From Prochlorococcus sp. AG-409-B13 (GTDB lineage Bacteria; Cyanobacteriota; Cyanobacteriia; PCC-6307; Cyanobiaceae): a DNA stretch of 64,000 bases. Below are positions 1,902-44,951 of the stretch, one piece after another; position 1 is the stretch's first letter; every line of letters starts with the position of its first letter. The DNA lies in contig QCJM01000003.1 in assembly GCA_003216035.1 (NCBI GenBank), positions 1 to 64,000 on the forward strand. The letters run 5' to 3'. Made by a program: the position numbers and the translations under genes. The notes beneath the pieces are model-generated. The model was given only the letters and a program-made list of their open reading frames with translations. It was not told the DNA's origin and searched no databases.

Positions 1902-1923
1902 GTTTGGATAAAGTTTGGATAGA
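1902..1923 (+). repeat. tandem 11-bp motif, copy 1 (upstream of P450)
   Basis: Two adjacent 11-mers, GTTTGGATAAA and GTTTGGATAGA, followed by CGATTCACTGA. The same arrangement appears at 4959-4980, 6343-6364, 25766-25787 and 30331-30352. This copy sits 7 bases upstream of the annotated P450 start codon. The role is unknown: recombinase arm sites, a regulator operator or a mobile repeat are all possible. Confidence 0.6.
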
Positions 1924-1968: not shown

Positions 1969-2010
1969 TTTCATTAGCCAGTAGGAGATATTCTTAGTTA
2001 TAACAAGGGT
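1969..2010 (+). repeat. dispersed TCATTAGCCAGTAG repeat, copy R1
   Basis: Begins TTTTTCATTAGCCAGTAGG, continues with GAGATATTCT and ends near TAACAAGG. It closely matches the copy at 3619-3660, with weaker copies at 6281, 6851, 12301 and 19935. No open reading frame is shared by all copies. The surrounding 1895-2198 interval, which separates divergent regions, holds nothing else that I can support. Confidence 0.6.
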
Positions 2011-2198
2011 TTTTAGTGAATTACAGGGTGTGTATTTGGTGTGTATAAAGTGTAAATTTGGGCTGTTTAGCAGTTTTTATTTCTGCCTTTATTCTGCCTT
2101 AGAAAAGCTTTGCAGGGTATGCCGATATAAAGAAAGGGATTAGGAGGTTAGAGGAGTAATTCTAATAAAAAAGGTCAAATCAATTTTTGAAAATCTTT

Positions 2199-3333: not shown

Positions 3334-3882
3334 AAGAAGAAGAGAAAGGTGACGATCAATAGAATTGAACTGTGAAGAACTATAACAGTAAATATTACGG
3401 AATGTGACGGTTCGGTTTCCCGAAGCAGCTTGATTTATGCTTAATTAGCTTTTAAATACTAGTCATAGCAATCATTTATGAATTTTTAAAAGCTGAGATT
3501 ATGCTCATATAAGATGATCTCTCTATGACTTGGTCTGGTAGATATCGCTACTAAATATATTTATATGTGCAATTACATTTTTATGGTTAGTCTTTTCCTT
3601 TCCATCACTCAAATGCCGCTTTTCATTAGCCAGTAGGAGATATTCTCAGTCATAGCAATGATCTTCAGCGGAAGTTTGAGTAAAAAGGTTGTTTTTGACC
3701 CTGTTTCGATGTTAGTAAAGCAGCTCTGATTGCACCCATTTCAGGGAAGTTGAACGACTTAGATATACACATTGCTAACGCTACCGGAGGAAATGGCATA
3801 GGAGAAGTCGTTGGACTGTTTGCCATAGATGATTGCTAGGACCTTGTTATCCAGCTTGAACGTTGTGGACTTTGTGAGCCCG
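3334..3882. other. 549-bp gene-poor interval
   Basis: AT-rich DNA between hli and the DUF481 gene. It contains repeat R2 (3619-3660) and a single 11-mer GTTTGAGTAAA at 3674-3684. On the plus strand about 3709-3838 is open without an ATG, reads coding-like (SGKLNDLDIHIANATGG) and ends at TAG. I regard that as a possible decayed fragment only. No RNA gene is recognised. Confidence 0.4.
3619..3660 (+). repeat. dispersed TCATTAGCCAGTAG repeat, copy R2
   Basis: GCTTTTCATTAGCCAGTAGG, GAGATATTCTCAG and TCATAGCAATG follow one another, preceded by CCATCACTCAAATG. It is almost the same as R1 over the first 28 bases and, with TCAGTCATA, provides the fullest version of the family. Confidence 0.65.
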
Positions 3883-4785
3883 TTAAAAGCTTTTGCCTAT
3901 ACCAAATAAATAACTGTCTTTTGTTTTTGGAGTTGTTAAATCTTGATAGGAATTCTTATATTCAAGCTTTGAGTAATATGGGGAATCAATACTTGGGATA
4001 AACTTTAGGGTTGCAGTTGACTCACTTCCTTTTAATAATTCAGATGCATGTGTGGCTGTGAATTTATGGTCTAAGATTAAATTGAAAAGTTTAGTGATAG
4101 ACCAATCATATGTTGCTTGAAATCTAGATGAGTAATATGCACCTCCACAGTTACTATCATTAGAGCAATCTTCGCCTCCTGTAGACCAATGAACAGCTGG
4201 GCCTAAAGATATCTTTAATGATCTATTCTGGTTTACTAAAAAGTCTTTGGAAAGGCCAAAACCAGCAATCGTTCTATTTTTTCCTGAAGTATTCAATGCA
4301 TTATAATCATATTCTATATTTGTATAGAAGTTATATTTACCTTCATTTATAAAGTCATTTCTTAAATCCAAGCCACCACTACTTGCTCCTGTAGATGTTT
4401 TATTGTTCTCAGTTACTTCATCGTAATGATAATCAGCCTCCATGTTTAAATTATTTCTTTCCCCTGAGTAAGTAGTTGAAATGTCTATTGCATAGCTGGA
4501 ATCTTTGGCCTTGCTTGTTGTTGAAGAGTTTAAGCCTATTGAAAATTCAGTCCCCCATCTTGAAGGAGGTGTCTTCTCCTTGGGTAAAACTATAGAAGAT
4601 GAACTTATTCTTATTTTCCCAAGTAAGGGACTGACAATAACCTTTGTCTTGTTAGAGCTTTCTTCCTTAATTAGTTCACCAGTAATAGTGTCACCATTGG
4701 TGAGGTTGTAACGAACTTCTTCGGCTTGAGCAGCAGTAGGTGACAGAAGCCCAGCAGCTAGGGCGACAAATAAGAGGCGACGCAT
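3883..4785 (-). CDS. DUF481-type outer-membrane beta-barrel protein
   Basis: About 300 residues from Met at 4785, chosen because it starts a clean signal peptide (MRRLLFVALAAGLLSPTAAQA, cleavage after AQA); a longer frame reaches 4830. The first mature part, VRYNLTNGDTITGELI, resembles the N-terminal beta motif of YdiY-like DUF481 proteins. The rest is alternating polar/hydrophobic strands rich in Tyr, Ser and Asn, and the protein ends in Phe (GIGKSF), as expected for a BAM-inserted barrel. The role of the family is unclear, with salt or stress links in proteobacteria. It is flanked by repeat-rich DNA on both sides. Confidence 0.75.
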   Translation of the reverse strand: MRRLLFVALAAGLLSPTAAQAEEVRYNLTNGDTITGELIKEESSNKTKVIVSPLLGKIRISSSSIVLPKEKTPPSRWGTEFSIGLNSSTTSKAKDSSYAIDISTTYSGERNNLNMEADYHYDEVTENNKTSTGASSGGLDLRNDFINEGKYNFYTNIEYDYNALNTSGKNRTIAGFGLSKDFLVNQNRSLKISLGPAVHWSTGGEDCSNDSNCGGAYYSSRFQATYDWSITKLFNLILDHKFTATHASELLKGSESTATLKFIPSIDSPYYSKLEYKNSYQDLTTPKTKDSYLFGIGKSF

Positions 4786-4958
4786 AAAATGAGGAGGTCG
4801 ACAGCGCAGAGGTTGGCACTCCATCGACATAACTAGTCTTTTCCAATGTAATTAATATTACTAAAACGTTCCGTAAGAACACGGTGATTACTTCGGCTTG
4901 CGAGGAAATACATTTCTCTTTTCCCAGCGAATGCGCCTTTTAGTTGAAGTGAATAGGA

Positions 4959-4980
4959 GTTGGGGTAAAGTTTGGGTAAA
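4959..4980 (+). repeat. tandem 11-bp motif, copy 2
   Basis: GTTGGGGTAAA followed directly by GTTTGGGTAAA, then TCTTTTCGATTCGCTGA, matching copy 1 in both the 11-mers and the following GATTCRCTGA block. It lies on the 3' side of the truncated integrase gene, while a matching copy (6343-6364) lies on its 5' side. Confidence 0.65.
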
Positions 4981-6280: not shown

Positions 6281-6324
6281 CACTTGTTCATTGGCTAGTA
6301 ATTAACCTCAGTCATATCAAGGAG
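6281..6324 (+). repeat. dispersed TCATTAGCC-type repeat, copy R3
   Basis: CACTTGTTCATTGGCTAGTA followed by ATTAACCTCAGTCATATCAA and GGAG. Preceded by TTGCCTTCACTCACCCAAATG, which matches the leader of R2. Diverged from R1/R2 but with the same block order. Confidence 0.5.
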
Positions 6325-6614: not shown

Positions 6615-7005
6615 TAATGAATGAACTTATCTTCTATTAAATACATAGTTAGGGATTCCAATTTTGGAATGAGGACAAATACTCTTTATGTGCAAACAAA
6701 TACTCTTTGGCTTTGTTCTCAGCAAGCTCCCTTAACTGAGAAAGCCAGTTGAGCTAGTAGATATCAGAGGAAGTGATTAGACCTGATTCCCACCTTTCAG
6801 TAAATCCATTCCAACTTTTCAAAAATTGCTTGTGATGCCAAGGTGCTTCGCTTTTTATTAGCCAGTGGTTAATCCCTTCCGTTGACTATATGCTCACCAT
6901 TGTTGGGTACTTAGGGTAAAAGCAGTACCCGAGTTGAATCGAGTTAAAGAGTTGTTCTTACTCTGGCTTATGCGATCGATAATGCAGAGATCTCGCAGGT
7001 AGAGC
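6615..7005. other. 391-bp repeat-bearing interval upstream of the K+ channel gene
   Basis: Contains the right copy of the 64-bp repeat (6732-6795), a TCATTAGCC-type repeat copy (CTTTTTATTAGCCAGTGG, 6851-6886) and an inverted repeat GGGTAC (6905-6910) / GTACCC (6925-6930) with a 14-base loop. The inverted repeat lies about 75 bp before the channel gene and could act in its expression, although that is unproven. No gene seen. Confidence 0.45.
6732..6795 (+). repeat. 64-bp direct repeat, right copy
   Basis: Partner of 5196-5259, in the same orientation. The span between the copies (about 1.5 kb) contains the integrase remnant, the 47-residue gene and the HEYKEWL gene. Confidence 0.6.
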
Positions 7006-12069: not shown

Positions 12070-12433
12070 AGGGACTAGCTTTTAATTCCTATAGGTATTC
12101 ATTCTTTAAATTTACTGTGTATTTATGCCTTCCTTATAATTTCAAGTTTAAACTTAAGCATCAGTAACTGCTTCTTGCACCTTCATGGGCTAAGGGAAGC
12201 CCTCTAGAGAAATAAGTGCTGTCAATTGACACAGAATTGGAGTAAGTTTCTTGAGAACCACAGAGATCGTAGAAACATCTTTAATTCAAGCACCAGGTCA
12301 CTTTTCATTAGCTAATAGTTGATTTCAGTCATATCAAGGGATCTAGGGTGATTTGACAGGTTTTGGTGATCTTTGGGGCTTAACATTTCAGCTTTTTTCA
12401 TTGTCGCTGAAATGTTGAGGCGTGGATTCAAAT
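12070..12433. other. 364-bp interval with a dispersed repeat
   Basis: Carries repeat copy R5 at 12301-12340 (CTTTTCATTAGCTAATAG, then TTTCAGTCATATCAAGGG). Downstream of it is a T- and G-rich stretch. No gene seen. Confidence 0.4.
12301..12340 (+). repeat. dispersed TCATTAGCC-type repeat, copy R5
   Basis: CTTTTCATTAGCTAATAG followed by TTGATTTCAGTCATATCAAG. It keeps the leader CTTTTCATTAGC and the trailing TCAGTCATATCAAGG seen in R3. Confidence 0.55.
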
Positions 12434-19934: not shown

Positions 19935-19971
19935 ATTCATTAGGCAATAGCTCAGCTCAGTCATACGAGGT
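19935..19971 (+). repeat. dispersed TCATTAGCC-type repeat, copy R6
   Basis: ATTCATTAGGCAATAGCTC followed by AGCTCAGTCATACGAGG. Same block order as R3/R5 (TCATTAG...TCAGTCATA..AGG). It lies just upstream of the two-TM protein gene. Confidence 0.5.
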
Positions 19972-25452: not shown

Positions 25453-25980
25453 AAGCATTACAGTTCTTTATTAGAAGAATATACAAACAAAATCAGATAC
25501 GGACTCTATAGCTTTTAAGGGGTACTTAAGGCTTTGATCCATAGAGAAGGCAATATTAAAAGAGTTATTTAAACTTATGGCACTCGCCTTTTACAGAGCG
25601 GCAAGAAGAATTTGAATTAGTAATTATCACTTTAAGCTGAAAACTTGCCATTGAGACACGCTCGATAAGAGAACGAGAAAACTTAAATAGAGCCACAGAA
25701 TTTTCCCAAGGCTAGCCATGAAAGGGCCTAATATCAACTGCATCAATCACTTAGAGCGGAAAAGGGTTAGAGTAAAGTTAGAGTTATTGATGTAATCGTA
25801 TTTTATGCATAAGGTTGTGAAAATAATAAAATATAATTTTATGATCAAATAATTATTTGAACGTTTGATCTATGGTATTAATACGCAATTAATGGAGTGA
25901 ATTAGTTAATAGTAATAATTCTCTCTAAAGTTAGTATAATTAAGCTCTAGAGAAAAGATTGACCAATTACTTATTGATTT
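25453..25980. other. 528-bp interval containing the left edge of the candidate element
   Basis: No gene-like frame. Contains the tandem 11-mer at 25766-25787. Base composition drops sharply (long A/T runs) to the right of that repeat, consistent with a junction between host and element DNA. Confidence 0.4.
25766..25787 (+). repeat. tandem 11-bp motif, copy 4 (left end of candidate element)
   Basis: GTTAGAGTAAA followed by GTTAGAGTTAT. Same orientation as 30331-30352 (GTTGGAGTAAA, GTTAGAGTAAA); 19 of 22 positions are identical. Confidence 0.65.
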
Positions 25981-26232
25981 TTAATCTTTAAATACTGGAG
26001 CTGGCTTTTTCTTGACACCACTTACACAATCGTATAGAGCATCCATCTGAGCGATTAAGGCCCTAACTTCTCCTTTCTCAGGCAATATCTTCTCTTTACT
26101 TAAAAAGATACTCATTTCTCGAAGTTCAACTCTCATATGAGAAAGAATGTGATGAGCTTCTTCTCTGCGGGACTTGCTCAATTGTGGTAATGCTTTTGTA
26201 TAAAATTTTCTCGCAATTTTTTGTAAAAGCAA
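25981..26232 (-). CDS. hypothetical helical protein (83 aa)
   Basis: Starts MLLQKIARKFYTKALPQLSK, basic and helical, ending GVKKKPAPVFKD. No family recognised. It is the leftmost gene inside the candidate element and is separated from the others by about 0.8 kb of AT-rich DNA. Confidence 0.5.
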   Translation of the reverse strand: MLLQKIARKFYTKALPQLSKSRREEAHHILSHMRVELREMSIFLSKEKILPEKGEVRALIAQMDALYDCVSGVKKKPAPVFKD

Positions 26233-27051
26233 CCCTTGAGAAAAGTAATTTTATTCTTCGAAGCGATGAAACTAAAAACTTGAGATGTGCTAATAATATT
26301 GCCATGCTTGGATTAAAGCTCATGCAAAAGCTTGCTAAATAGCTTTAAAATGGTAAAATCATTACAATCCAGTACCTTTATCAAGGGTGCTTAATCAAAT
26401 CGCACCACAGATTGTACTGACAGTTATTGTTGAAAGGTTTGTTTTAACCAGTATTGATGTTATTGATAAATTAAAAAAAAACAATTGCAAGTTAGCCCTA
26501 TAGGCACTCTTGCTGCTTCTCACTCTTTACTCAAACGGAAGAGTCGGCTATAATACTCAAAAATGTAAAAAAATTAATTTGACTTGATATAAATTAAGTT
26601 TAAATCAATATCATTTACTTTATTTTCTATTAAGAAATTATTGGATCAGAATATTTAATCGCATTTATCTTTAAGTGCTAAACCTTAACTCCTAATTAGC
26701 TTTTGATGATGATTATGCAAATAATATCTGCATAATTCAGTAATTTATGGAATATTCAATCACTTTATTAAAGTTTATATTATGGCTTTATCTCTTTTTA
26801 TTTTATTATTCTTTGGATTATTTTAATAAAGCTTATTAAATAAATTATCTGAAATGGCAAGAATAATTTTAATCATTTAAACTGATCAACTATTGTACCT
26901 TTAAATTTATTTTGCCTAATTTTGGGTCTATGTGTAACAAGAAGGTCTAGAACAAATGTACACACTGGAGAATTATTAATAATGTAGTCATCTAAAAAAT
27001 CATCTATTGACTTTAATTATCTTTTCTCATTATTTTTTAGATATATTTATT
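26233..27051. other. 819-bp very AT-rich interval inside the candidate element
   Basis: No gene-like frame on either strand; many A/T runs and short inverted repeats. Could be an origin-like or packaging region, decayed DNA, or spacer. Nothing specific is recognisable. Confidence 0.4.
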
Positions 27052-27213
27052 TTATGAGGCAATTAGATCATCATCAGTTTCTATATTCCATTCTTCTTGT
27101 ATTTGTTTTAGCATTAAATATTCAGGAATGCTAGTTATACTTGATTGGATGACCTCTTTTCTTGCTTGAAATTGGATTAAACTCTTGTTTTTGTATTTGT
27201 ATGGATGATCCAT
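27052..27213 (-). CDS. tiny element gene 4 (53 aa)
   Basis: MDHPYKYKNKSLIQFQARKE then a helical, acidic end (WNIETDDDLIAS). Its ATG directly follows the TAA of the gene at 27214 (TAAATG), indicating one transcript. No family recognised. Confidence 0.6.
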   Translation of the reverse strand: MDHPYKYKNKSLIQFQARKEVIQSSITSIPEYLMLKQIQEEWNIETDDDLIAS

Positions 27214-27372
27214 TTATGCTGCCTCTCTTTCATAGTCATCACATACCAAACCTTCTATAAGCTCCAGAGCTATATGCTCTGATGAGGCCTTGCTAGCCTT
27301 CCAATGTCTTACTAATAGCTGCAGTTCTTTTATCCTTAACTCTGCTGCTTTGATTTTTTCATCACTTGTCAT
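27214..27372 (-). CDS. tiny element gene 3 (52 aa)
   Basis: MTSDEKIKAAELRIKELQLL, then VRHWKASKASSEHIALELIE and an acidic end. Two amphipathic helices, coiled-coil-like. Abuts the next gene without a gap. A GGAGGG-like Shine-Dalgarno (revcomp of CCCTCCG) lies upstream of its ATG. Confidence 0.6.
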   Translation of the reverse strand: MTSDEKIKAAELRIKELQLLVRHWKASKASSEHIALELIEGLVCDDYEREAA

Positions 27373-27416
27373 TTTACCCTCCGTTTTTAGTTTGTGAGAT
27401 GTTAATCTTGAATCCT

Positions 27417-27557
27417 TTATGCTGCCATAAAGTCATCCTCCTCCTCAGCATCCCAGATACCTTGGTAGATTTGAGATGCAACAAAATCCTGTTGTTGCAT
27501 CTCTCCTACCCCCTCTGACAAATCTTGTTTCTTAATGCTATGGTCATGCCTACTCAT
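27417..27557 (-). CDS. tiny element gene 2 (46 aa)
   Basis: MSRHDHSIKKQDLSEGVGEM, then QQQDFVASQIYQGIWDAEEE and DDFMAA. Acidic, Gln-rich, no membrane segment. Co-directional with its neighbours, 44 bases before gene 3. No family recognised. Confidence 0.55.
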   Translation of the reverse strand: MSRHDHSIKKQDLSEGVGEMQQQDFVASQIYQGIWDAEEEDDFMAA

Positions 27558-27599
27558 AGAAAGTTCCTTTAGAGATCGCATAATTGGGAGAATCAATTT

Positions 27600-27719
27600 T
27601 TACTCCTTTAGTGGGATAGACCTAAATAATCTGATGTTGTTTAGAGGAATTGTATCTTTGCTTTCTAATTGGTTCAACTCTATTTCAAGCTCATCCAAAG
27701 CCAGGCAGAATTGAGTCAT
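27600..27719 (-). CDS. tiny element gene 1 (39 aa)
   Basis: MTQFCLALDELEIELNQLES then KDTIPLNNIRLFRSIPLKE. Leucine-rich N-terminal helix. It begins 38 bases after the stop of the 206-residue gene. Short, but in line and co-directional with the other tiny genes. Confidence 0.45.
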   Translation of the reverse strand: MTQFCLALDELEIELNQLESKDTIPLNNIRLFRSIPLKE

Positions 27720-27757
27720 GTAAAATGTATTTGTTATTTTTTTCTTTATATACCTCA

Positions 27758-28378
27758 TTAAACACTCTCCCCAATAGTATTTCCTTTAGCAACAAGTTCT
27801 CTAAGCTTTCTATTCTCTGCTACCAACTCCTTATTCCGACTTAATGCAAAGTCAAGCTTTATATTTAATTCCTTTACCCTTGTATCAATAGTTTTTGGCA
27901 TCACTTTCCTTGACCTAGCCTTCCCTCTTGTCATGCTCCTAACCTTGGCATCGGAGAGACTCTCTCCCTTCGCGACCGCATCGAAGACCTTCTGCCTTTC
28001 TTTGTCTGTTACTCCTTTACCTCCAAGGGCATTCAAGGACCTCGCTGAGAGTCCAGCTAGCAGGTGGTCTTCGACCTCGTAATTGCCAAGCCATTTCTCG
28101 TGGGCATTCACTAGGTCGACCGCGTATCTTTCGGAACAGTTCAGTGCTCCGGACTTTAGGTACGCCTTCCAGTTTCCTGCCTTTACATTTTGCTTTATTT
28201 CATAGAGGTGCGCAGCGACAGCGCGGATGCATTGACCAGCAGTCAGGAGTTCCTCGTTGATCTCTACTGTTGACTCTTTAATGAAAGAGACCTGAGCGGG
28301 GACTAGCCCTTTCTCAACCTCGTCTCCTAGATAGACAGATTCAAGATCAACTACCTCTCCGGTAGTTGCGATAGTCAT
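27758..28378 (-). CDS. DUF3102-like helical protein, lead gene of the element's tiny-gene train (206 aa)
   Basis: Residues about 40-95 (LLTAGQCIRAVAAHLYEIKQ, then GNWKAYLKSGALNCSERYAV) resemble the DUF3102/plasmid-phage type region in which a host-range or partition-linked protein has a helix-turn-helix-like ERYAxxLV segment. Residues 150-200 are basic and end in a coiled coil (ALSRNKELVAENRKLRELVA). GC content is visibly higher than in surrounding genes (for example GCGACCGCATCGAAGACC), a sign of recent transfer. A 14-bp perfect palindrome lies 37 bp upstream of the ATG. Probably a DNA-binding regulator or partition protein; not proven. Confidence 0.6.
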   Translation of the reverse strand: MTIATTGEVVDLESVYLGDEVEKGLVPAQVSFIKESTVEINEELLTAGQCIRAVAAHLYEIKQNVKAGNWKAYLKSGALNCSERYAVDLVNAHEKWLGNYEVEDHLLAGLSARSLNALGGKGVTDKERQKVFDAVAKGESLSDAKVRSMTRGKARSRKVMPKTIDTRVKELNIKLDFALSRNKELVAENRKLRELVAKGNTIGESV

Positions 28379-28403
28379 GAGGTGAAAACGTGACTACTAA
28401 AAC

Positions 28404-28505
28404 CTAACTCGAAGTGACGAGCTCGTCATCAAGAACGGCTGTACTATTGGTCTTTTTGAGGGCGTCCAGTCTGATTGCCGTGACTGCGAATGCTCCCTGG
28501 ATTGG
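28404..28505 (-). pseudogene. GC-rich coding-like fragment without start codon
   Basis: Open on the minus strand between an upstream TAA and a TAG, reading QGAFAVTAIRLDALKKTNST then AVLDDELVTSS. No ATG, GTG or TTG in frame. Composition matches the 206-residue gene that follows, so it may be the C-terminal end of a gene lost during element rearrangement, or a leader. Confidence 0.35.
28415..28428. promoter_or_regulatory. 14-bp perfect palindrome, operator-like
   Basis: TGACGAGCTCGTCA, reading the same on both strands. It ends 37 bases before the start codon of the 206-residue gene. Placement and symmetry fit binding by a dimeric repressor, possibly that gene's own product. It also lies within the coding-like fragment 28404-28505. 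Confidence 0.45.
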
Positions 28506-28617
28506 TTAACAAGTATTAAATTTAGTTGAATTAGCCTCTTTCTTCAATGACATTCTATATGTTGATTGCCCTTTATCAATGCAGTTCCTTTCTAGCTTTG
28601 CTTTTGATTTAATCACT

Positions 28618-28716
28618 ATGTCCTCTGAGAGAACTTTGCCTGCCGATGAAATTGAGGCTGAGGATTTAATAGATAAGCAAGAGGTGGAAATGTTCGGATT
28701 CCCTACTAATGAATGA
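28618..28716 (+). CDS. tiny acidic protein (32 aa)
   Basis: MSSERTLPADEIEAEDLIDK then QEVEMFGFPTNE. Overlaps the start of the next gene by 8 bases. The ending EMFGF resembles the EIFGF of the 46-residue gene at 37694. Short, so only moderately supported. Confidence 0.4.
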   Translation: MSSERTLPADEIEAEDLIDKQEVEMFGFPTNE

Positions 28717-28831
28717 CATAAACCTGGTTCTTGTCTTGCCTGTGACTCTATTAATTCTTTTATTAGTTGGTATAATCTACTCTCTTTATTATTTTTTTCT
28801 AGGCTTAGCAGGAGGCGAATTAGATGATTGA
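28709..28831 (+). CDS. tiny single-pass membrane protein (40 aa)
   Basis: MNDINLVLVLPVTLLILLLV then GIIYSLYYFFLGLAGGELDD: one membrane helix with an acidic C-terminus. Its ATG overlaps the end of the preceding tiny gene. Convergent with the integrase gene, whose stop lies 16 bases away. No family recognised; holin-like size, but this is not evidence of function. Confidence 0.5.
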   Translation: MNDINLVLVLPVTLLILLLVGIIYSLYYFFLGLAGGELDD

Positions 28832-28846
28832 ATAATCCATGAATCT

Positions 28847-30310
28847 TTAGCCCTGATTTTTTGATAAGCTTACACGCTCATAATAACTTGTTAATGTATT
28901 TATACTTTGACCTGTAGTTCTAGCCAAAGTAAGTAAATCTGTCCCATTTTTAATTTGCTCCTCTATAAAAGAGGTTCTAAGTGAAAAGATCGTGTATTCT
29001 TGATTGTTAGACTGAAAGCAATTGAGCCTACCGTCCGAGCGTAAATCTCTGATAATTAATTTCCAATTGTATCTGATCCGTTGTAATGAAATTGGTTCAA
29101 AACCTTTATTTGGATCAGAAAATACATATGTATTTAATAGAGAATCACGAAGACCAATATCTAAATTCCTAATGTAATTTTGCATGAATTTATACCAATT
29201 AACTAGTTCTTTAACTAGAGAACATTTTGCTTCAAACTCTTCTTTCCCTTTTCTTCTCATGACTCTTATATATACAAGCACTTCTTTTTTCGCATAATCT
29301 TTTTTATCAGCTTGTGCTACTAGATCCTCGGCAGAGGAATTCAGCATTTTATTTTGAATTGAAACCGCATATTGAGGATCTAAAAATAATAAATCCTTGC
29401 TTAACTTATTACCATGAGATCTGATCGGGGGTTTAAAGGAAAAGTCTTTCCACTTTAAATTGAGTATTTGTTGAGGATATAGACCGCAATTCTTTGATAA
29501 AAATAAAAAATTCCAAACGAGATTCCTGAAGTATTTGCATTTGATTTGCTTCTTTTTAAAAGAATGCATATCACAATTATTTATCCACCTATCTTTAATA
29601 TAGTTATTTATTAATTCCCAATCTTTTTTATTTATAGCCTGGTACGATGATATATCATGACAATAGTTGGTTATTTTAGGGATTAAATTCTCTTCATAAA
29701 GTAAGTAATTGCTTATATAATTATTTTTTGCCATGTAATTTTTTAAAAATTCCTTAATTATAGTTAATTCCCTCTTTATGTTGCAACTTGTTGATGGAGA
29801 TCTATAGGTTATGTAGTCTTTGAAAGTGTATTTGTCTATTTGATTTGAAAAAGTTATACCGAAAGATTTTAGATAGAGTTTCATATGTTTATTGAGAACA
29901 ATAACTTTATTGGCTAAACTTTTTTCTTTTAATACACCATTTACTACCAGCTTATCCTGTAAATTTATCCATTCTTTAATTGCTGATCCTATTTCTATAT
30001 TCATACAATTAACTTTATTACTGTATTCACCTGTCACTATACGCTTATCATTATTTTGACCCTTAACAGCTTTTGTGCTATTTAAAAGCGACAGATGATG
30101 CGGCGAATCCTCTTCTAATCTTAAAGCTGTATCGGAGGCCATGAAGATAGCCTCTTCCATTGTTTTTGCACCTTTTATCAGCTTACTTCTATATCTTTTT
30201 TGGCCTTTTACCTTTTCCCTGTAAAAGAATTTACCAATATTAGAATCTTGCCAGGTTATAACCTCTCCTTTACCGCTTAAAACCTTTTGTTTGGCAAGTA
30301 ATTTTGGCAT
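28847..30310 (-). CDS. divergent tyrosine recombinase / integrase (487 aa)
   Basis: An N-terminal arm-binding-type domain (SNIGKFFYREKVKGQKRYRS, about 24-43, then GAKTMEEAI) is followed by a long core-binding region and a C-terminal catalytic domain. Box I reads NCGLYPQQILNLKWKDF, with Tyr where the first catalytic Arg is expected and Gln for Glu. Box II reads IFSLRTSFIEEQI, keeping the second Arg. The end LARTTGQSINTLTSYYERV holds the nucleophilic Tyr, with Gln at the usual His/Trp. A Lys-bearing beta turn (RRKGKEEF) is present. Tandem 11-mers lie 21 bases upstream of the ATG. It may be a specialised or weakened integrase. Confidence 0.82.
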   Translation of the reverse strand: MPKLLAKQKVLSGKGEVITWQDSNIGKFFYREKVKGQKRYRSKLIKGAKTMEEAIFMASDTALRLEEDSPHHLSLLNSTKAVKGQNNDKRIVTGEYSNKVNCMNIEIGSAIKEWINLQDKLVVNGVLKEKSLANKVIVLNKHMKLYLKSFGITFSNQIDKYTFKDYITYRSPSTSCNIKRELTIIKEFLKNYMAKNNYISNYLLYEENLIPKITNYCHDISSYQAINKKDWELINNYIKDRWINNCDMHSFKKKQIKCKYFRNLVWNFLFLSKNCGLYPQQILNLKWKDFSFKPPIRSHGNKLSKDLLFLDPQYAVSIQNKMLNSSAEDLVAQADKKDYAKKEVLVYIRVMRRKGKEEFEAKCSLVKELVNWYKFMQNYIRNLDIGLRDSLLNTYVFSDPNKGFEPISLQRIRYNWKLIIRDLRSDGRLNCFQSNNQEYTIFSLRTSFIEEQIKNGTDLLTLARTTGQSINTLTSYYERVSLSKNQG

Positions 30311-30859
30311 TGGAAGTAGATATACATTCGGTTGGAGTAAAGTTAGAGTAAATAAGTACTAGCTTAAATTGATTGGAAATAAAGGTTTTAATGACTTTAG
30401 CACAACAGGAATGTTTAAACTGGAAAAGGCCTCTTTTCAATTTTTATATACCTTTGAATAAAGCCCCCCTCTATTGGGTTTCTGCATATTAAATAAACCT
30501 CTTTCTCTAACTTTATGCTCTCAAATTTGATAGTGGCCATTGCTACTGCAGAAATACTCTTCATCCATTCACTTGATTAGAACAAACTCTTTATAAGCAG
30601 CCCTTTAGATGTTTTCTCGTAAAAGACTTAAATTAAGTATCCTTTAATTTTAAGTATATAGTCTTGGCCTTGTTCATTCCTTGAGCATGTTAGGTTGATA
30701 ATTTCCCATCATCAATATATGTTTTGTTTCAATGCCTACTAATCTTATTTAGGTTTTACAAGCCATAGAAAAGATTCACCGGATTCTCTTGGCTCATTTT
30801 TAATCTGTACATATACCCTGTATTTGTTATCAGCCTCCAACTCCCCAAGGTGGTTATTC
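30311..30859. other. 549-bp interval at the right edge of the candidate element
   Basis: Contains the tandem 11-mer 30331-30352 and then AT-rich DNA without a gene-like frame. It separates the integrase gene from the divergent 2OG oxygenase gene. No tRNA or tRNA fragment recognised. Confidence 0.4.
30331..30352 (+). repeat. tandem 11-bp motif, copy 5 (right end of candidate element)
   Basis: GTTGGAGTAAA followed by GTTAGAGTAAA, the most regular copy. It lies directly upstream of the integrase ATG and could serve as att arm sites, as the element end, or as operator for the integrase promoter. Confidence 0.65.
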
Positions 30860-31501
30860 ATGGACCTTATAGCTTGTTATAGGAATTCTGGTTTCGAGGC
30901 TGTAGCTGATGGAATCATGGAATTCTTCGACAGACGACACGACCTGCAGCAACGTGGAGTTACCTTTGGCGAAGAAGCTTTTATTTTGGATGGGGAATTA
31001 GCAAAAGTTTCAACGGACATTAGCCTTGTTGCAATTGATCGCTCAGATCCCGAGGCGTTTGCATTGTCTGAGGTGATAATGCGAGGAGTTAATGCCGCTC
31101 TAGAGCAATATCTTCACTCAAGACCCTTATTTAAAGAGTGTTGCCCAAAAAAGACTTTATTTATAAACCCTATTTTTAATCTTCAACGTTATGCTCCTGG
31201 GGAAGGCTTTAAGCAATGGCATTGTGATTGGGCTATTAATGATGAGGTCACTGAACCAGTACATCGAGTTTTGGCATGGATTCTTTATTGCAATGATGTT
31301 GAGTCTGGTGGGACGGAGTTTCTCTGGCAAGGACATCATGAAGCTGCAGAGCGTGGCAAAATAATAATTTTCCCAGCTGGTCTCTCTCATATTCATAGAG
31401 GTCGAGTGAATGAGACATATTCAAAAACCATTGCGACTGGTTGGATAAATGCCGGTGACAAGGACTCCTATATGTCACGTTTGGCAAGCTTTGAAACTTG
31501 A
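30860..31501 (+). CDS. 2-oxoglutarate/Fe(II)-dependent dioxygenase (prolyl-4-hydroxylase-like)
   Basis: 213 residues from ATG 30860 (a TTG 36 bases upstream is also open). The double-stranded beta-helix carries the iron site HxD in FKQWHCDWA (His and Asp about 121 and 123), the distal His in SHIHRG (about 179) and a Lys (YSKTIATGW) for the 2-oxoglutarate carboxylate. YCNDVESGGTEF in between is the usual P4Hc strand pattern. The target (free amino acid, protein or small molecule) is unknown. It is followed by an AEC transporter gene 60 bp downstream on the same strand. Confidence 0.85.
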   Translation: MDLIACYRNSGFEAVADGIMEFFDRRHDLQQRGVTFGEEAFILDGELAKVSTDISLVAIDRSDPEAFALSEVIMRGVNAALEQYLHSRPLFKECCPKKTLFINPIFNLQRYAPGEGFKQWHCDWAINDEVTEPVHRVLAWILYCNDVESGGTEFLWQGHHEAAERGKIIIFPAGLSHIHRGRVNETYSKTIATGWINAGDKDSYMSRLASFET

Positions 31502-44879: not shown

Positions 44880-44951
44880 TGGGCGATACTGGAATCGAAC
44901 CAGTGACTCCTACCGTGTCAAGGTAGTGCTCTACCTCTGAGCTAATCGCCC
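44880..44951 (-). tRNA. tRNA-Val (anticodon GAC)
   Basis: The minus strand folds as a full cloverleaf: acceptor GGGCGAT/ATCGCCC, D arm GCTC/GAGC, anticodon stem CTACC/GGTAG with loop TTGACAC (anticodon GAC), and T arm ACTGG/CCAGT with TTCGAAT. 72 nt with discriminator A; the CCA end is not encoded. Confidence 0.95.

Follow-up and report, generated by a model that had tools for sequence, protein, structure and literature searches.

The locus considered here lies in a 64,000-nucleotide stretch of Prochlorococcus sp. AG-409-B13 (contig QCJM01000003.1, positions 1 to 64,000; hereafter the window) and comprises a gene for a 487-residue tyrosine recombinase, a train of small genes and two copies of a 22-bp double motif, one at each end. 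The initial annotation of this DNA had reported copies of the pattern GTTRGAGTAAAGTTAGAGTWAW at 25766-25787 and 30331-30352, which we confirm, and the 1.45 Mb genome contains no others; at 3 mismatches, 0.00 matches are expected in the shuffled window, and the core pattern of the double motif with 2 mismatches allowed is found in the same two places only. The two copies are direct, 19/20 identical over 25765-25784 and 30330-30349, and spaced by 4565 bp. Other places in the window have related tandem motifs as well (1902-1920, 2028-2046 and 4959-4977), and the motif type is therefore not confined to this element. Its genes and features are the following, the repeats being named according to the reading argued for below (ORF, open reading frame).

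25710-25723, minus strand: zone in which the left crossover is predicted, 42 bp outside the distal arm pair by family geometry; no recognisable core
25766-25784, minus strand: probable distal arm-site pair, ACTCTAAC-TTT-ACTCTAAC, closing the element at its far end; it points the same way as the proximal pair and is cognate with it at 15/16
25981-26232, minus strand: small gene, 83 aa, with a 69% identical relative in locus L198; last gene before the distal arm pair
27052-27213, minus strand: small ORF, 53 aa, TAAATG-coupled to the ORF at 27214-27372
27214-27372, minus strand: small ORF, 52 aa, with partial relatives (first 28 residues) in L117 and L118
27417-27596, minus strand: small ORF, 59 aa, with a 40% identical relative in L198
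27600-27758, minus strand: small ORF, 52 aa
27758-28378, minus strand: 206-aa all-helical protein, probable DNA-binding partner, with a weak DUF3102/helix-turn-helix signal
28579-28716, plus strand: small ORF, 45 aa, with a 40% identical relative in L198
28847-30310, minus strand: tyrosine recombinase, 487 aa, its start codon 20 bp from the right copy
30331-30349, minus strand: probable proximal arm-site pair, ACTCTAAC-TTT-ACTCCAAC, separated by 20 bp from the start codon of the recombinase gene, on its upstream side; homologs have theirs at the same place
30399-30412, minus strand: zone in which the right crossover is predicted, 49 bp outside the proximal arm pair by family geometry; no recognisable core

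The recombinase gene, the 206-codon gene, the four tiny ORFs on the same strand (the last two joined as TAAATG) and the long AT-rich spacer (GC 0.29) had all been described correctly in that annotation, which overlooked a fifth small gene, the one at 25981-26232 on the minus strand. It had also seen no capsid or replication gene in the element, and we agree. Profile searches of the tiny genes against Pfam, PHROG and NCBIfam gave nothing convincing. The 206-residue protein was modelled as all-helical, with a pLDDT (predicted local distance difference test) of 85, and compared with PDB folds it showed no match at E <= 0.001 and a weak ParB hint. Its relatives lie directly downstream of the recombinase, on the same strand, in L035, L052 and L072, and numerous genomes of a single genus carry relatives too, apart from any recombinase that was seen; such widespread homologs weaken the idea of an element-specific gene, and a role as DNA-binding accessory or regulator is our guess. 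Locus L198 carries, near a 2OG-Fe(II) oxygenase (2OG) gene, a 206-aa-like gene together with the relatives of the 59-, 83- and 45-aa products, without recombinase or arms.

The 487-residue protein itself is unrecognised by Pfam, PHROGs and NCBIfam, and its identity was established through its homologs, several of which match Phage_integrase (PF00589), and through its fold. The AlphaFold2 model (mean pLDDT 77) comprises a putative N-terminal arm-binding domain (residues 1-68) with the order strand-strand-strand-strand-helix, core-binding helices (107-205) and a catalytic domain (228-487); Foldseek matched it to Cre, XerA, XerH and the Tn1549 integrase, with E down to 8.4e-7 and a probability of 1.00. 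Concerning the features of arm-binding-domain tyrosine recombinases (AB-YR), the catalytic fold with its Tyr nucleophile, Lys and HxxR-like Arg is present (Lys354, Arg445 and Tyr477 are invariant in the family and kept in the window enzyme), and the N-terminal beta-strand and helix domain is predicted, from model and sequence, to bind arm sites. The full catalytic set with box I Arg and His/Trp is incomplete: at the box I position (residue 278) the window enzyme has Tyr, and its relatives have Ser (21/34) or Arg (13/34). A displaced catalytic Arg may exist in the family, for instance the near-invariant R297; a displaced box I Arg has been noted for the CTnDOT integrase group (PMC8138268).

Of 400 genomes of the family, 54 encode relatives of the recombinase, most of them ~22-35% identical, and the genome of the window itself encodes a second one (34% identical) on contig C31. 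The named relatives belong to Prochlorococcus and Synechococcus (29 named loci, ~23-32% identical over long matches in the alignment query), and no close relative was found in GTDB contigs, IMG/VR or phage records; a 25% identical one lies at 1050-2420 of L166, a 17.7-kb IMG/VR contig. The catalytic part of the window enzyme is about equally distant from that of all relatives, and for this reason the enzyme may use another target than they do.

These relatives point to the probable meaning of the repeats. Upstream of the recombinase start codon, most homologs have an 8-mer repeated in tandem, whose general form is NNNCNAAC (variants CAC and AGC) and whose period is usually 11, sometimes 10 or 12; its letters vary by enzyme (ACTCTAAC, ATTCCAAC, ATTCGAAC, ATCCACAC, ATACCAGC and others). 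A matching distal pair in the same orientation exists in the window and in L034, L035, L037, L039, L044, L045, L047, L058 and L060, and in these nine clear relatives it is followed by a short core from the 5' end of an EVE-domain gene; looser distal matches occur in L061, L065 and L067, the first two with other duplicated cores. Over 21 modules, the two ends of one module match at 14.6/16 positions on average versus 11.8/16 when the distal ends are shuffled, a value equalled in none of 20,000 permutations, and the two ends of the window element are cognate at 15/16. The geometry is conserved as well: the distance from distal pair to core is 41-44 bp in 39/40 cases, and that from core to proximal pair is 49, 50 or 60 bp in 31/31 (49-50 bp in 27, 60 bp in 4). 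The 60-bp spacing is one 11-bp step longer, as if one helical turn were tolerated. The window arm pattern was not found in IMG/VR.

Comparing 27 recombinases, we found that arm similarity correlates with identity over residues 1-65 (r 0.59; with the catalytic part held constant, partial 0.60, 0/5000 permutations) and that its partial correlation with the catalytic part, given the N-domain, is -0.28. The window enzyme and that of L034 are 66% identical in the N-domain versus 28% in the catalytic part, and have 15/16 arm letters in common. A natural domain swap separates L037, L039 and L040 from L041-L044, which are ~47% identical over residues 1-90 and 87-90% identical over the rest, and their arms differ. 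Because the letters follow the N-domain and change with the natural swap, these sequence comparisons indicate that the repeats are arm-type binding sites; letter-tracking by the N-domain is the behaviour expected of an arm-binding domain (PMC8138268). Since the duplicated core of the EVE-type elements lies outside the arm pairs, the crossover duplication and the repeat are separate things. The junctions of the element had been placed at the repeats themselves in the initial annotation, a placement we find unsupported, for the duplicated target of the relatives lies 41-60 bp outside and the repeats behave as arm-type sites.

Part of an EVE-domain gene (PF01878, 180 bits) adjoins most Prochlorococcus homologs, and the intact EVE gene is found at the distal end where the contig reaches that far; from this arrangement, the insertion appears to replace the first EVE codons. 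EVE-type elements carry the core TACTGGCTAATGAA, from the 5' end of the EVE gene, at both outer sides of the arm pairs, and cores recur along the array with a new module after each. Among modules devoid of recombinase, 8/12 have ends matching at >=14/16, and some tags found in modules of this kind (ATTCGAAC, ATCCAAAC) are those of recombinases in other genomes, which is compatible with movement in trans without proving it. One such module of 4.2 kb (L043, from core 15912 to core 11694, ends matching at 15/16) encodes PstS, an ArsJ-associated GAPDH and an ArsJ-like transporter. Another, in the genome of the window itself (L226, contig C24, 535-5773), is a nitrite-assimilation cassette between two EVE cores and similar arm pairs, with genes for ferredoxin-nitrite reductase (nirA) and a formate/nitrite transporter; contig C33 of that genome carries ArsJ. 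Other recombinase homologs lie, judging from upstream translations, beside the apparent 3' ends of ychF (L050, L067), rpsD (L066, L068, L069) and an iscA-like gene (L063), which suggests target switching within the family.

We consider it highly probable that the 22-bp double motifs are arm-type site pairs for the N-domain of the recombinase and that the element belongs to the family building the EVE arrays. The arm pairs would then mark, from inside, both ends of an integrative element of ~4.6-4.7 kb. By analogy, its circular form would read distal arm pair, 42 bp, core, 49 bp, proximal arm pair, with both pairs in the same direction; the N-domain would hold the arms and the catalytic part would exchange the core 40-60 bp outside each pair. 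As the proximal pair stands just upstream of the start codon, the enzyme may well repress its own gene, by analogy with the KplE1 intS, for which an att region over the integrase promoter and autorepression were shown (PMC2951348). Members of this picocyanobacterial family would use protein-gene ends as targets, chiefly the 5' end of an EVE-domain gene, and successive insertions would generate module arrays, each module with its own matched arm pairs, those without recombinase being probably moved in trans. A broader proposal, which we regard as having an even chance of being right, is that of an addressable cassette system: recombinases with one common target (the EVE 5' end) and swappable arm-reading domains would move only the DNA bearing matching tags, including recombinase-less nutrient cassettes (nitrite assimilation, phosphate/arsenate, P450) stacked upstream of EVE, and the window element would be an early-diverged relative embedded in such an island.

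The genomic context agrees with an island. The window is the start of contig C3, with the 2OG gene at 30.8 kb; in the same genome the EVE gene lies close to the end of contig C4, and the small contigs C24, C28 and C33 carry additional cores. EVE and 2OG genes are divergent neighbours in two genomes (G070, G028), and in three others (G025, G057, G030) they keep the same arrangement ~9, 31 and 36 kb apart. The first 30.8 kb of the window are thus probably part of an EVE-2OG island, in which the element would be outermost, beside 2OG. One island broken in the assembly is the simplest reading, and we infer its continuity across the contigs. Located at the 2OG edge, the element would be an old, decaying member of the family. 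The initial description as a compact recombinase-bearing integrative element bounded by two repeats is kept; the term "self-contained" has become doubtful, because the enzyme lost residues and the element apparently lies inside a larger EVE-gene island.

Several observations weigh against this assignment. The window element has cognate, same-direction tandem arm pairs at both ends, matching at 15/16, but the duplicated EVE 5' core expected 42 and 49 bp outside the arms is not recognisable: no target duplication was detected (7/14 positions of the core match in register, P 0.05; the best match on the grid does not exceed chance), nor was any core found at the element by best repeats or with a weight matrix of 75 EVE cores. 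Since no core stands at the predicted places, we treat the element as a relative and not as a proven EVE-targeting member. The comparison for presence or absence proposed in the initial annotation was carried out with fused left and right flank proteins in 119 relatives and with flank DNA in 201 genomes; neither revealed a syntenic empty site, and the flanks are without close relatives. The two proximal 8-mers of the window match only at 7/8, which is not significant alone (shuffle fraction 0.215), so our argument for this copy depends on its distal match and on the family; the counts of pairs given above include related genomes and are hence not fully independent. The joining of the EVE contig C4 to C3 is a reconstruction, and EVE and 2OG are far apart in some genomes. 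Finally, the recombinase shows E281Q, R359F and Y442F at positions where 34/34 aligned relatives are identical, and Gln at 468 where relatives have His or Asn. Because it lacks a recognisable core duplication and has lost catalytic residues invariant in the family, the copy is probably old and perhaps immobile. That it is a dead fossil with an inactive recombinase, a view compatible with membership in the family, has in our opinion slightly less than an even chance of being true: the four substitutions, the missing core, the outermost position in the island and the cargo relatives of L198, near 2OG without recombinase or arms, all point that way, whereas the 487-aa ORF is intact, K354, R445 and Y477 are kept and the arms match at 15/16.

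The other explanations concern the repeats and the nature of the element. Two near-identical direct copies, one of them beside an integrase, with no other duplication found at the window element, could be attL and attR cores, so that the element would end exactly at 25766 and 30352; we find this improbable, because EVE-type elements duplicate both the arm pair and a separate core 41-60 bp outside, and because the letters follow the enzyme and not the target, the same EVE core being accompanied by different arms. Still less credible are tandem 11-mers acting as operators of a host response regulator (PhoB/RpaB-like, one helical turn) that would drive recombinase and cargo, with an incidental position at the ends. 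The period of 11, the location 4-60 bp upstream of start codons and the pair at the same position in the P450 module would suit such operators, but the letters are element-specific and covary with the recombinase N-domain, both ends are cognate, and the distal pair of the window faces no gene; in relatives the target core comes next. A phage satellite, as the initial annotation had suggested, or a tycheposon, targeting a tRNA gene and packaged by a phage, is equally remote. The picocyanobacterial host, the tyrosine recombinase and the cargo islands recall tycheposons (Hackl 2023, as cited in PMC10872708 and PMC10187409), but the targets are protein genes, and we found neither packaging or capsid-hijacking genes of the PICI/VEIME type, nor a convincing Pfam/PHROG match in the cargo, nor any match in 50,697 phage records, the sole viral relative being the 25% identical one in IMG/VR. 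A tRNA target was rejected after a survey of 40 homologous loci, mostly of 20 kb: no tRNA was found in 36/40 or in further stretches beyond EVE, and the 4 exceptions carry four different tRNAs. The initial annotation had rightly seen no tRNA link at the window element, which has no tRNA within 14 kb, the sole tRNA of the window being tRNA-Val at 44880.

The favoured reading, an arm-tagged element of the EVE-array family, may be compared with known systems. Tycheposons (Hackl et al. 2023, as presented in PMC10872708 and PMC10187409) use tRNA genes as targets (7 described) and measure 4-200 kb; they resemble the present elements as picocyanobacterial islands with a tyrosine recombinase, nutrient cargo and serial integration at one locus, and differ in that here the target is the EVE 5' end or other protein-gene ends, the modules are mostly ~1-10 kb and the arm pairs are element-specific. 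By its target the family is not a tycheposon one. Flamholz, Biller and Kelly described a novel family of integrases that usually precede tRNA-Phe or tRNA-Cys and often lie near a small serine recombinase (PMC10187409); these are likewise picocyanobacterial tyrosine integrases of variable islands, missed by standard profiles and of unknown mechanism, but none of the 40 loci has either tRNA, a difference in setting. Integrases of the Lambda/Tn916/KplE1 type also have an N-terminal arm-binding domain of beta-strands and helix, arm sites away from the core and an att region over the integrase promoter (PMC8138268, PMC2951348), whereas here there is one tandem pair per side, in the same direction and at a fixed 42/49-bp spacing, and arm specificity is diversified among enzymes with one common target. 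The dusA-associated islands, in which tyrosine recombinases occupy the 5' end of a protein gene whose restoration was proposed (PMC4482086), concern an unrelated host gene and other taxa, and differ from these dense module arrays with matched arm pairs. Integrons likewise line up cassettes lacking a recombinase at a single locus, with probable mobilisation in trans; here no single intI stands beside an attI (attC hairpins were not searched), tandem arms are present at both module ends and several modules have their own recombinase. The large family of insertions is seemingly undescribed, and our literature search on the EVE domain and Prochlorococcus found nothing related; some members may already figure among the "cryptic elements" of Hackl 2023, to judge from their mention in PMC10187409.

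Island genes make up the main differences among Prochlorococcus and marine Synechococcus, the most abundant photosynthesisers of the ocean, and tRNA genes serve as targets for the movers described to date. A second route based on protein genes and on element-specific end tags would, if true, explain the gain and loss of single traits such as nitrite use, the insertions carrying nutrient genes. The ~20 recombinases with cognate sites, along with the natural domain swap, offer a readable arm code for testing arm recognition by integrases, and the arm-core-arm sequence rule can serve to find and bound such cassettes in other genomes.

The remaining features of the island were located within the window, the cores by the weight matrix mentioned above, which recognised six of them, all on the minus strand (1983, 3635, 6300, 6867, 12317 and 19949).

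1902-1920, minus strand: proximal arm pair ATCCAAAC x2 of the P450 module
1970-1983, minus strand: EVE-gene 5' core TACTGGCTAATGAA, start of the cytochrome P450 module (542-1894)
2028-2046, minus strand: distal arm pair ATACACAC x2 of the preceding module
3622-3635, minus strand: EVE-gene 5' core copy
4959-4977, minus strand: arm pair ACCCAAAC/ACCCCAAC of the DUF481 module (3883-4830)
6287-6300, minus strand: degenerate EVE-gene 5' core copy, with the distal arm pair GCTCAAACTTTATTCAAAC before it
6854-6867, minus strand: degenerate EVE-gene 5' core copy
12304-12317, minus strand: EVE-gene 5' core copy
19936-19949, minus strand: degenerate EVE-gene 5' core copy, the outermost recognised
30824-31501, plus strand: gene for a 2OG-Fe(II) oxygenase, probably the edge of the island; in G070 and G028 the homolog lies next to the EVE gene in divergent orientation

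The cytochrome P450 gene (542-1920, minus strand), which immediately follows an arm pair and an EVE core, is a probable cassette at the contig end. At the end of contig C4 of the same genome (L123, 7061-15674), possible island cargo lies upstream of the intact EVE gene: zinc-uptake ABC genes, a Fur-family regulator and a CobW-like gene, so named from their translations.

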